A stretch of 48,511 bases of DNA from Erysipelothrix sp. (GCA_012512455.1 JAAZEF010000070.1:1-48511), one strand, 5' to 3'; counted from the stretch's first letter, positions 26,079 to 30,578 are shown. A program made the numbers and translations. The notes: generated by a model not told the origin, from the sequence alone.

Positions 26079-26086
26079 AACTATAA

Positions 26087-26110
26087 ACCAGATGAAAATC
26101 TGGTTTTTTT
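26087..26110 (+). terminator. Intrinsic terminator after the CHAP gene
   Basis: CCAGAT gaaa ATCTGG followed by TTTTTTT. Confidence 0.85.
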
Positions 26111-26193
26111 ATGCAAAAGGCATTTTCAATTAATTAGTTATGTGATAGAATTTATAAGGAAATATTGGCTAATCACGCTAGAAAGTGCAAATT

Positions 26194-26895
26194 ATGAATA
26201 TTACAACTAATGATAATAAGAATTTAGAAACAATCGTTGACAATCAAAAATACTTAAGAGTTCCAATTAAAACACATGTCGTCATGCCTGGAGACAATTT
26301 AATAGAATTATTTAAGCAATATCTACCCAATGAAGATCTTGAAGAAAATGATATTGTTTTTATTAGCGAAAAAATCGTCGCTATCTCTCAAGGACGTGCC
26401 CTTCACATTAAGGATGTACATCCTCGCCCTTTGGCTACCTTTCTTTCAAAGTATGTTACTAAGTCTCCTCATGGTATAGGCATTGGTATGCCTGAGACAA
26501 TGGAAATGGCACTTAGAGAGTGTGGCACATTCAAAATCCTGCTAGCGTCCGCTGTAGCGGCTGTCAGTAAGCTTATCGGCCGTAAGGGTGACTTCTATCG
26601 CATTGCTGGAGATAAAGCACGTGTTATCGATGGGCCTGCTAGCTCTAACATCCCACCTTTTGATCAGTATGTCATCTTAGGACCTAATAATCCTGATCAA
26701 GTGAGTAAAGAGCTGAAAAGTGTCTTTAATAAAAATATCACCGTTGTCGTGGCAGACATCAATGATTTAGGTGGAAACATCCTTGGTAGTAGTGACCCAA
26801 TCAATATTAAACAACTACTTCAAATCCTAAAAGATAACCCACTTGGACAAGGTCACTATGGTACTCCATTAGGTATCATTCGTAAAGTAGCATAA
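26194..26895 (+). CDS. Coenzyme F420-0:L-glutamate ligase-like (CofE-like) family protein
   Basis: VPIKTHVVMPGDNL, ENDIVFISEKIVAISQGR, GDKARVIDGPASSNIPPFDQYVILGPNNP are CofE/FbiB-family-like segments. Start ambiguous (26185 or 26194). Confidence 0.75.
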   Translation: MNITTNDNKNLETIVDNQKYLRVPIKTHVVMPGDNLIELFKQYLPNEDLEENDIVFISEKIVAISQGRALHIKDVHPRPLATFLSKYVTKSPHGIGIGMPETMEMALRECGTFKILLASAVAAVSKLIGRKGDFYRIAGDKARVIDGPASSNIPPFDQYVILGPNNPDQVSKELKSVFNKNITVVVADINDLGGNILGSSDPINIKQLLQILKDNPLGQGHYGTPLGIIRKVA

Positions 26896-26899
26896 CAAC

Positions 26900-26930
26900 T
26901 AAAAGATTCTTATCACTAAGAGTCTTTTTT
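26900..26930 (+). terminator. Intrinsic terminator after the CofE-like gene
   Basis: AAAGATTCTTA tcac TAAGAGTCTTT followed by T-run. Confidence 0.8.
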
Positions 26931-26956
26931 CTTTCAAGAAAATAATTCCTATTTAT

Positions 26957-26964
26957 GTTATAAT
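26957..26964 (+). promoter_or_regulatory. Putative extended -10 promoter for the ATP-grasp/dehydrogenase genes
   Basis: TGTTATAAT (TGnTATAAT), about 90 nt upstream of the ATG at 27054. Confidence 0.5.
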
Positions 26965-27008
26965 TGATATATATCAAGACGTAAGTCAGAAAATACGATA
27001 TTTCAGCA

Positions 27009-27031
27009 ATCACAAGTTTTTTGTGGTTTTT
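27009..27031 (+). terminator. Leader hairpin with U-tract (possible attenuator)
   Basis: CACAA gtttt TTGTG then GTTTTT between the putative promoter and the 27054 start codon. Confidence 0.35.
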
Positions 27032-27053
27032 ACATTTTTCTTTGAAAGGATGA

Positions 27054-28151
27054 ATGAAAATAAGTAAACAATCAATTAACCAAGCTCATCGACTTGAAAG
27101 AATTAGTCGAAAGATTTATCACAGACTTGACCATCAGCGTCTAGCAATTGAAGCAAGACGTAGCTGCAGACAGCAACTAAAATCCATGAATGGTGGATTC
27201 AAGGGTACTAATCAACAATTTCAGAAAGATGTATTAACTTTCTGGAATTCCTATAATATTAAACCTCATAAAATGTGGTTTGATCTCTATGGATTTAAGG
27301 ACCAACGATACAATCCTTACTACATCCCAGAAGATATTTATTGGACTACCATTTATCCCAAAGTAAACAAAGTTGAATTCAGACAAGCTTATACCGATAA
27401 GTGTTTTTATGATCGTTTGTTTCCAACATTAAAACAACCACGTTTTATCCTTAAAAATAGTCATGGTATCCTTTATGATCAACAACACAACATCATAACC
27501 TATGACATGGCCTTAAACTTGTTATCAAAAGAAACAACATTTGTGATTAAGCCTTCGATACATAGTGGTGAAGGGATTGATATCACCTTCTATAAACAAA
27601 GACAATATTCTATTGACAACCTTTTACAATCTTATCAATCTAATTACATCATCCAAGAGATAGCAGACCAACACGAAATTCTTAAATCACTACATCCTGA
27701 GTCACTCAATACTATTCGTATCATTTCTTATCTGTATCAAGGAGAGGTCCATATCTCTTCAGCTATTTTAAGAATAGGTCAAGGTGGTTCTAAATTGGAT
27801 AACTTCACCAGTGGTGGTGTTGCTGTAGCGATAAATGATGATGGTTCTCTACATACTAAAGGTGTCAATGTCTTGGGACAATGGCTAACTCATCATCCTG
27901 ATACAAATATTGAGTTTGAATCAATTACACTACCCAATTACAACAAAGTCATTGAGGCAGTTAAACAAGCTCATCTATTAACACATCATTTTATGATTAT
28001 TGGGTGGGATTTTACAATTGATAAAGATGGTGAACCGCTTTTTATTGAATACAATGGTGCCCCGGGAATGAATCAAATAACTGGTGGTCCCCTTTTTGGT
28101 AAACATACCAAAGAAATACTTAATTCATTATTAATTAAAGGAGGAATTTAG
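27054..28151 (+). CDS. Sugar-transfer-associated-type ATP-grasp protein
   Basis: TFVIKPSIHSGEGIDITFY; ESLNTIRIISYLYQGEVHISSAILRIGQGGSKLDNFTSGGVAVAIN; LFIEYNGAPGMNQ. Confidence 0.78.
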   Translation: MKISKQSINQAHRLERISRKIYHRLDHQRLAIEARRSCRQQLKSMNGGFKGTNQQFQKDVLTFWNSYNIKPHKMWFDLYGFKDQRYNPYYIPEDIYWTTIYPKVNKVEFRQAYTDKCFYDRLFPTLKQPRFILKNSHGILYDQQHNIITYDMALNLLSKETTFVIKPSIHSGEGIDITFYKQRQYSIDNLLQSYQSNYIIQEIADQHEILKSLHPESLNTIRIISYLYQGEVHISSAILRIGQGGSKLDNFTSGGVAVAINDDGSLHTKGVNVLGQWLTHHPDTNIEFESITLPNYNKVIEAVKQAHLLTHHFMIIGWDFTIDKDGEPLFIEYNGAPGMNQITGGPLFGKHTKEILNSLLIKGGI

Positions 28152-29224
28152 TGAATATCGCAATCTTAGGTGCTGGTAATGCAGGAAGTAGTGTTGCTGC
28201 CGATTTAACTTTAAAAGGTCACACAGTCAGTCTTATCAAAACTACAGATTCCATGCATAATGAAAACTACAATTATCTTATTAACAATAAGAAAATTAAG
28301 CTCATCGATAACAACAATATTCAAGAAGTCACTATTGATACCGTGAGTAAAGACTTATCTTTAATTAGAAAAAGTGATGTCATTATCGTTTATATTCAAA
28401 CAAATTATCATGAAGCCTTAATTAAACGAATTAAACCTTATCTAAGAGATGATCATATATTAATATTAAATCCAGGTTATCTTTCTACAGCTTATGTACT
28501 TAAACATTGCTCAAATATAGATTTAACTATTGTAGAAGCTCAAAGTTCTTTTATAGATTGTCGTATTAAAGAACCTGGAACTGTTAAAATAAGCTTTCGT
28601 AATGCCCGTAATCCCTTAGGAATCTATCCACAACATAAGAAAGAACAGACCATCAAGAAACTTGATTTAATAGGTTATCCTTTTGAGTATCTCACTTCAG
28701 TAATTGATGCGGGTTTACACAATCCTAATTTAATTGTTCATACAGTGGGTGCTATTATGAGTGTTCCCCGGATTGAAAAGACTGAAGGTGAATATTACAT
28801 GTATCGTGAAGTGTTTACTCCTAGTGTATGGAATATCGTAGAGGCTTTAGATCATGAGAAAATGAATGTTATGGAGCGCTTAGGTAGTAAAAGAGTACCT
28901 TATCTCCAAGCGTGTAAATATCGAAACACACTGGATGATAGTCGTGATGCTAAGGAAGTCTTTGAGTGGTATGCCCAGATGCCTAATCCTATTAAAGGAC
29001 CTACTCAAGTAGATTCACGTTACATTACAGAAGATGTTCCTCAAGGTCTCGTACTTTTAGAATCACTAGGACGATACTATGGAATAAAAACTCCTGTTAC
29101 TTCTAGTTTAATTAACATTGCGAATGCTGCCCTGCAAGATGATTTTAGACAAAATGCTAGGACAATCAATTCATTGACAAAGAAATCATTAGATTTAATC
29201 TTAGAGGATAGAAAAAGCGGATAA
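28151..29224 (+). CDS. Opine/octopine-dehydrogenase-like NAD(P)-dependent dehydrogenase
   Basis: GTG start after AAAGGAGG; MNIAILGAGNAGSSVAADLTLKGHTVSLI Rossmann motif; IDAGLHNPNLIVHTVGAIMSVPRIEKTEGEYYMYREVFTPSVWNIVEALDHEK resembles the octopine dehydrogenase C-terminal domain. Confidence 0.8.
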   Translation: MNIAILGAGNAGSSVAADLTLKGHTVSLIKTTDSMHNENYNYLINNKKIKLIDNNNIQEVTIDTVSKDLSLIRKSDVIIVYIQTNYHEALIKRIKPYLRDDHILILNPGYLSTAYVLKHCSNIDLTIVEAQSSFIDCRIKEPGTVKISFRNARNPLGIYPQHKKEQTIKKLDLIGYPFEYLTSVIDAGLHNPNLIVHTVGAIMSVPRIEKTEGEYYMYREVFTPSVWNIVEALDHEKMNVMERLGSKRVPYLQACKYRNTLDDSRDAKEVFEWYAQMPNPIKGPTQVDSRYITEDVPQGLVLLESLGRYYGIKTPVTSSLINIANAALQDDFRQNARTINSLTKKSLDLILEDRKSG

Positions 29225-29236
29225 CACCGCTTTTTT
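29212..29236 (+). terminator. Intrinsic terminator overlapping the dehydrogenase stop codon
   Basis: AAAGCGG ataaca CCGCTTT TTT. Confidence 0.85.
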
Positions 29237-29242
29237 ATATGA

Positions 29243-29731: not shown

Positions 29732-30340
29732 TTATCTAATTAAGGGTTCTACATGTTTTAATAAAATAATAGTTAAAATTGCCACGAAGCCCTGTTTAAC
29801 CACATTGAATGGTACTACCATAAAGAACATCATGGACCAATAATCATGAACTAATCCATTAAGTGAATTCGTAAGAGCAATTAAATCACTCATATTGTAA
29901 CCTAGTACATTCACATAAGCAGGATAGATGATGTAGGCATTGGTAACTAACGCTACGGCTGACATCGTAATCACTGTTGCTGCGACTGCGATAATAGCTC
30001 CTTTGCGATCTTTTTTCATCTTATAAATGAAACCAACTGTTAATGCGATTGAAATACTTAAGACGAGATTCGATAGTTCCCCAATAAATCCAGTCGTAGT
30101 GGGTTTCATAAGAAGCTTGATTACAATCTTAACAAACGAGGTCACTACCCCTGCTAAAGGCCCCAAAGCCATACTGCTGAGCATTACTGGCGTGTCTGAT
30201 AAATCAACTCCCATAAAACTTGGCGCAAATGGTAAAGGAAACTCAAAGAGCATCAAGATGCCTCCTAAACTTCCTAGAACTCCAATTTTTACAAGGGTAG
30301 ATGTGGAAAATAATTCCTTCTTTCTTGTCATAGCTGTCAT
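29732..30340 (-). CDS. ribU: Riboflavin ECF transporter S component (RibU)
   Basis: Membrane protein of S-component type (GILMLFEFPLPFAPSFMGVDLSDTPVMLSSMALGPLAG); directly downstream of an FMN riboswitch. Start at 30340 with RBS AGAGGAG. Confidence 0.92.
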   Translation of the reverse strand: MTAMTRKKELFSTSTLVKIGVLGSLGGILMLFEFPLPFAPSFMGVDLSDTPVMLSSMALGPLAGVVTSFVKIVIKLLMKPTTTGFIGELSNLVLSISIALTVGFIYKMKKDRKGAIIAVAATVITMSAVALVTNAYIIYPAYVNVLGYNMSDLIALTNSLNGLVHDYWSMMFFMVVPFNVVKQGFVAILTIILLKHVEPLIR

Positions 30341-30371
30341 AATAACTCCTCTCAATGTACGTCCTTTTAAT

Positions 30372-30397: not shown

Positions 30398-30420
30398 AAA
30401 AATAAATACAAAACAAGTAT

Positions 30421-30534
30421 TTACCTTCTTCCATCCAGACTTTAACTGTCGCCACTTGAATTTCACAAGTTCAACCACCTAAGTGGCTCGCAGGGTATAC
30501 TGCCGGTGGAGACTTTCACTCCGCCCTGAAGATA
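30421..30534 (-). ncRNA. FMN riboswitch (RFN element)
   Basis: Minus strand CTTCAGGGCGGAGTGAAAGTCTCCACCGGCAGTATACCCTGCGAGCC...GTGAAATTCAAGTGGCGACAGTTAAAGTCTGGATGGAAGAAGGTAA matches the RFN core. Confidence 0.96.
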
Positions 30535-30578
30535 AATATATTATAGTAGCTTGTTAAATCATTGTCAAGCTCATGACT

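Follow-up and report, generated by a model that had tools for sequence, protein, structure and literature searches.

The best-matching described relative of the dehydrogenase considered here is the opine dehydrogenase of Arthrobacter sp. 1C (CENDH/ArODH; PDB 1BG6; Pfam: PF02317), which has the same length, His-Asp dyad, and active-site tryptophan and shares about 23% identity with it in structural alignment; the Arthrobacter enzyme was discovered singly, and many members of our dehydrogenase's clade have an ATP-grasp gene as partner. In Providencia O-antigens, sugars carry opine-type amino acids in amide linkage, alanopine in O35 and N-epsilon-(1-carboxyethyl)-lysine in O14 (PMC10609480), as would be expected from an opine dehydrogenase acting with an amide ligase; these are, however, Gram-negative O-antigens, and the likeness noted here is one of chemistry. 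Teichuronopeptide/TupA-type loci and ATP-grasp peptide-ligase operons (PMC4431377) resemble one branch of our loci, which likewise combines several ATP-grasp ligases, including a TupA-like one, with CapA and Mur-ligase-like genes and a UDP-sugar dehydrogenase; that branch adds an opine dehydrogenase, whereas our starting copy has no polymer genes. The opine metallophores (staphylopine, pseudopaline, and yersinopine) have the opine dehydrogenase fold in common with our enzyme, with 6c4t, 6c4n, and 6c4l among its Foldseek matches, but our loci carry an ATP-grasp ligase instead of recurring CntL-type synthase or transport genes. CofE (F420-0:gamma-glutamyl ligase) shares its PF01996 domain with a neighbor of the gene pair, which scores 32 bits against a CofE equivalog cut-off of 181 and is not part of the operon; no F420 pathway was found in its genome.

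Chemists have long recognized opine-type substituents on the O-antigens of some Gram-negative bacteria, but the literature searched describes no genetic route in which an opine dehydrogenase is combined with an amide ligase. Searches of non-subscription literature returned neither work joining octopine dehydrogenase and ATP-grasp with polysaccharide or O-antigen nor, under its family names, work naming ATPgrasp_ST. The enzyme types are familiar; their recurrent coupling, its two genomic contexts, and a testable product appear new.

A Putative Two-Gene Operon

We call the whole 48,511-nucleotide stretch of Erysipelothrix sp. DNA that was analyzed (JAAZEF010000070.1) the window. It carries three plus-strand genes, encoding a CofE-like protein, an ATP-grasp protein, and a dehydrogenase (Table 1), and their open reading frames and Pfam scores agree with the coordinates given in an earlier sequence-only reading. 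We read the ATP-grasp and dehydrogenase genes as an operon because base 28151 is common to both and GGAGG precedes the dehydrogenase GTG: the ATP-grasp stop TAG occupies 28149-28151 and the GTG begins at 28151, a one-base overlap that the earlier reading had correctly pointed out. Beyond the pair, on the minus strand, an FMN riboswitch (30419-30537) lies 5' of a gene for an ECF-type riboflavin transporter subunit (29732-30355), an ordinary arrangement.

Table 1. Features of the gene pair and its surroundings, with zinc transporter genes from related loci (window coordinates unless a locus is named)
Feature	Position	Strand	Detail
Terminator-like hairpin and T-run between CHAP and CofE-like genes	26085-26106		
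Short CofE-like protein, neighbor outside the unit	26194..26895	+	PF01996, 58.6 bits
Terminator-like hairpin between CofE-like and ATP-grasp genes	26902..26931	+	11-pair stem, -11.3 kcal/mol, then TTTTTT
ATPgrasp_ST amide ligase (predicted)	27054..28151	+	PF14397, 365 aa, upstream member of the pair
GGAGG ribosome-binding site of the dehydrogenase, within the ATP-grasp gene end	28140..28144	+	sequence
Octopine/opine-type NAD(P) dehydrogenase (predicted)	28151..29224	+	PF02317, 357 aa, second gene of the pair
Hairpin and TTTTTT after the dehydrogenase, candidate terminator	29215..29238	+	six-pair stem, -7.4 kcal/mol
ZIP gene, downstream of cassette	L043:7572-8378		
ZIP gene, upstream of cassette	L051:7595-8317		
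ZIP gene, upstream of cassette	L078:6705-7517		

The CofE-like Neighbor

The sequence-only reading had proposed that all three genes form one pathway yielding a glutamylated or opine-type metabolite, and the genes are indeed present and co-stranded within 3 kb. They do not, however, behave as one unit. The CofE-like gene looks like a separate transcription unit because a terminator-like hairpin with a T-run lies on each side of it. Its product of about 233 residues (open reading frame 26185-26895, with the ATG at 26194) exceeds the PF01996 cut-off of 25 bits, scores only 32.2 bits on TIGR01916 against an equivalog cut-off of 180.65, and falls under every CofE cut-off. The gene accompanies none of the 51 dehydrogenase loci described below (0/51); its homologues (45-57% identity) occur in few relatives, where they have unrelated neighbors and, in all the relatives inspected, stand solo. 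Except in the window's genome, the CofE-like and dehydrogenase families are found in different genomes within the class, so that their distributions are almost disjoint, and the one genus with both has only a divergent dehydrogenase, distant from the CofE-like gene. On terminators, distribution, and cut-offs we reject the CofE-like gene as a third pathway member. We consider a three-gene pathway very improbable, and a glutamylated product is without support because the CofE-like gene lies outside the unit.

The same reading had noted no visible F420 biosynthesis gene, and our results agree that no F420 pathway accounts for the CofE-like gene. Besides this gene, no F420 genes were seen within the window, and genome-wide searches of the window's genome, done family by family, gave no TIGR03551 match for CofH. 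The genome's only CofD-family gene is, by context, YvcK, because it sits between RapZ-like and WhiA-like genes; on these two families, CofH and CofD, an F420 pathway is rejected.

A second PF01996 protein of 409 residues is encoded in a housekeeping-gene neighborhood of the same genome (G000:C43:9904-11040; loci L021 and L093), which thus holds two unlike CofE-fold proteins (~410 and 233 residues, the latter at window 26194-26895); both types recur in relatives. Separately, a lone, divergent opine-type dehydrogenase, ~28-30% identical (L090:7673-8749 and L091:8501-9583), occurs in a genus belonging to the same family and adjoins transposase fragments in one genome.

A CENDH-Type Dehydrogenase and an ATP-Grasp Ligase

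The dehydrogenase has a Rossmann N terminus, and its top Pfam match by far is PF02317, the opine-dehydrogenase alpha-helical domain (147.2 bits against a cut-off of 30). Arthrobacter 1BG6 is its best sequence match (phmmer E 4.5e-30), and the AlphaFold model (pLDDT 92.9) superimposes on the two-domain fold of 1BG6 with a Foldseek TMq of 0.84, compared with 0.69-0.76 for octopine dehydrogenase and about 0.69-0.75 for metallophore dehydrogenases. His197 and Asp295, invariant in 50 alignment rows, align with His202 and Asp297 of 1BG6, which we take to be its dyad. Trp227 is invariant in the 47 closest rows. A His-Asp dyad and a tryptophan are common to opine dehydrogenases (PMC10787698), and from the alignment we infer that His197/Asp295 and Trp227 are the corresponding residues. 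The enzyme is probably a member of the CENDH-type opine dehydrogenase family, predicted to carry out NAD(P)H-dependent condensation.

Foldseek also relates the fold to ketopantoate reductases and mandelate dehydrogenases, and opine dehydrogenase reactions are reversible (PMC6033044), so that the enzyme might break opines down or, on another substrate, catalyze a ketopantoate-reductase-like reaction while the ATP-grasp enzyme ligates ordinary amino acids. We regard this as unlikely: PF02317 dominates the Pfam matches, the dyad and tryptophan are conserved, and a biosynthetic ligase as partner and a setting among biosynthetic genes favor the synthetic direction.

The ATP-grasp protein matches PF14397 at 142.2 bits (cut-off 31.4) and is encoded by the sole PF14397 gene in its genome. 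Residues K116, K166, R222, R240, D319, E332, and N334 are invariant in 30 homologues and present at the window, and the catalytic-type residues predicted from this alignment are intact. The best Foldseek matches of its AlphaFold model (pLDDT 89.6) are RimK, tubulin-tyrosine ligase, BacD, and Ddl (D-Ala-D-Ala ligase), all of them peptide or amino-acid ligases that couple carboxylates to amines. TM-scores are low overall (about 0.4), and the fold therefore does not indicate a substrate class. The family name ATPgrasp_ST denotes a sugar-transfer association, a matter of context and not a sequence criterion. Sugar-transfer or polysaccharide genes do neighbor ATPgrasp_ST in 17-20 relatives and two further loci, and the scanned flanks at the window are of other kinds. 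Remoter ATPgrasp_ST genes sit in capsule-type loci without the dehydrogenase, on a Lactococcus garvieae plasmid and in another genome (G537).

Recurrence and Co-divergence of the Pair

A profile built from two dehydrogenase sequences, and from no other gene, was scanned against 84,980 species genomes and identified 51 loci, which, having been found in this way, are not a random sample. Nearly all are from Firmicutes; one is labeled Anaerolineaceae and comes from a 3.9-kb contig that could be mis-binned. ATPgrasp_ST directly adjoins the dehydrogenase in 33 of the 51 loci (repeats removed), almost always just upstream, and with repeats kept, 31 of 55 dehydrogenase loci have a same-strand ATPgrasp_ST within 400 bp, with two upstream fusions in addition (in L066 and L072 the adjoining ATP-grasp is part of a longer fusion protein). 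The gap between the genes ranges from -4 to +140 bp across the 27 loci measured, with overlap in four. The remaining 18 loci have no adjoining ATP-grasp, a contig end explaining a few, and at six loci a single ATP-grasp has two or more complete dehydrogenases around it.

Frequent side-by-side placement cannot be chance, even in a set of 51 loci that is not a random sample, because both families are rare: among 392 genomes of the phylum, only the window's genome is positive for the dehydrogenase clade, and only that genome and one other for the ATP-grasp clade. The two proteins also diverge together (Mantel r 0.825, p 0.0002; 24 loci). The signal persists within the branch of stand-alone cassettes (r 0.48, p 0.009) and is nil within the branch found in polymer clusters (r -0.03; 9 loci), so overall co-divergence reflects the split between the two branches plus the stand-alone branch. 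Comparison across Firmicutes shows the predicted operon of ATPgrasp_ST and a CENDH-type dehydrogenase to be recurring and co-diverging, which upholds that part of the sequence-only reading which joins these two genes. A phage-borne or plasmid-borne cassette was rejected: the viral_contigs scan gave no relative, and plasmids hold distant homologues of each gene singly, with the pair not found.

Two Genomic Contexts

At 17-20 of the 51 loci, either both genes or the dehydrogenase form part of a surface-polymer cluster; most of these loci come from rumen or gut Lachnospiraceae and Oscillospiraceae, others from Cerasibacillus and Ruminococcus flavefaciens. These clusters encode a Bac_transf sugar transferase, Wzy_C, a flippase, a UDP-sugar dehydrogenase, and a DegT aminotransferase, together with CapA/PGA_cap, Mur-ligase-like, and TupA-like proteins and up to five ATP-grasp genes. 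At two loci (L048, 8996-11994, and L050) the dehydrogenase, with no ATP-grasp, lies between UppP-like and undecaprenyl-phosphate-translocase-like genes, a possible lipid-carrier link.

In about twenty other loci, mostly from digester Clostridia, the cassette is stand-alone, its neighbors being unrelated genes, and is often arranged as dehydrogenase–ATP-grasp–dehydrogenase, with the two dehydrogenases of the trio separate on the tree. These loci are the nearest kin of the window, which belongs to the same branch. The window dehydrogenase groups with the upstream-type paralogue (support 95/100), though it lies 3' of its ATP-grasp; it sits on a long branch, and an alternative grouping is not rejected (AU p 0.118). 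Broken remnants of an upstream dehydrogenase before the ATP-grasp gene (L035:8639-8842 and L040:2900-3232) suggest that the trio has repeatedly lost its first dehydrogenase.

No polymer genes were found beside the pair at the window or at the ~20 close-kin loci, and the window's genome (97.6% complete) has no match to the capsule-priming transferase PF02397; for these two reasons the polymer link is not directly transferable to the window. The stand-alone setting, with no glycosyltransferase or flippase nearby, and the missing PF02397 speak for a free small-molecule product, namely an opine-amide that would serve in metal chelation, osmotic balance, or nitrogen storage instead of as an envelope substituent, the capsule loci then having recruited like enzymes to a different end. 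At three digester loci a ZIP zinc transporter gene shares its strand with the adjoining stand-alone cassette (Table 1), a hint of metal handling, as in opine zincophores, noticed after many families had been viewed; two of the three are 74% identical and may represent one lineage, and the third belongs to a different ZIP subfamily. Set against a free product, the cassette has no recurring neighbor of nicotianamine-synthase-like, exporter, or importer type, and the dehydrogenase is nearer CENDH than the staphylopine-type enzymes. We give a free product an appreciable but minor chance. The staphylopine-type metallophore mentioned in the sequence-only reading fits poorly: the best match is 1BG6, metallophore dehydrogenases rank lower, and CntL-type synthase and transport partners do not recur.

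A Proposed Opine-Amide Pathway

We propose that opine synthesis is coupled to amide ligation and that the acceptor belongs to the cell envelope in the window's copy too, a reading that we judge about as probable as its opposite. The dehydrogenase would form an opine by reductive condensation of an amino acid and an alpha-keto acid; pyruvate is the commonest keto-acid partner in the family. With ATP, the ATP-grasp enzyme would form an amide bond between a second molecule and either the opine or the amino acid from which it is made, so that ligation could come after or before opine formation. In the 17-20 capsule-type loci the acceptor would most likely be a surface polymer (a uronic acid, an amino sugar, or a polyamide), with products resembling teichuronopeptide-like or opine-amidated polysaccharides. 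The window's stand-alone copy might perform like chemistry on another envelope acceptor, which is the weakest step. For this copy we favor an envelope product marginally over a soluble metabolite, in view of the polymer-cluster context of the sister branch.

More generally, we tentatively describe a Firmicutes opine-amide pathway in two forms, stand-alone and capsule-embedded, that would pair an ATP-grasp amide ligase with one dehydrogenase, or with two specialized ones around it, and yield a product class undescribed in these bacteria; we put its probability a little short of even. The recurrence of the operon and its polymer-cluster contexts make an "opine-type metabolite or cell-surface modification," as the window was originally interpreted, the best class of reading. 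The operon is small and conserved, occurs in bacteria of the rumen, gut, and digesters, and has its dehydrogenase in culturable genera as well, so that the proposal is testable with two purified enzymes; in Firmicutes genomes the operon could also mark the presence of polymers or metabolites that contain opines.

ATP-grasp and Mur-ligase-like enzymes of one polymer cluster carry C-terminal BspA-type leucine-rich repeats (PF13306; L066:5789-8866 and L066:13628-15382), and similar long genes are present in L072; such repeats are odd for enzymes expected to be cytosolic.
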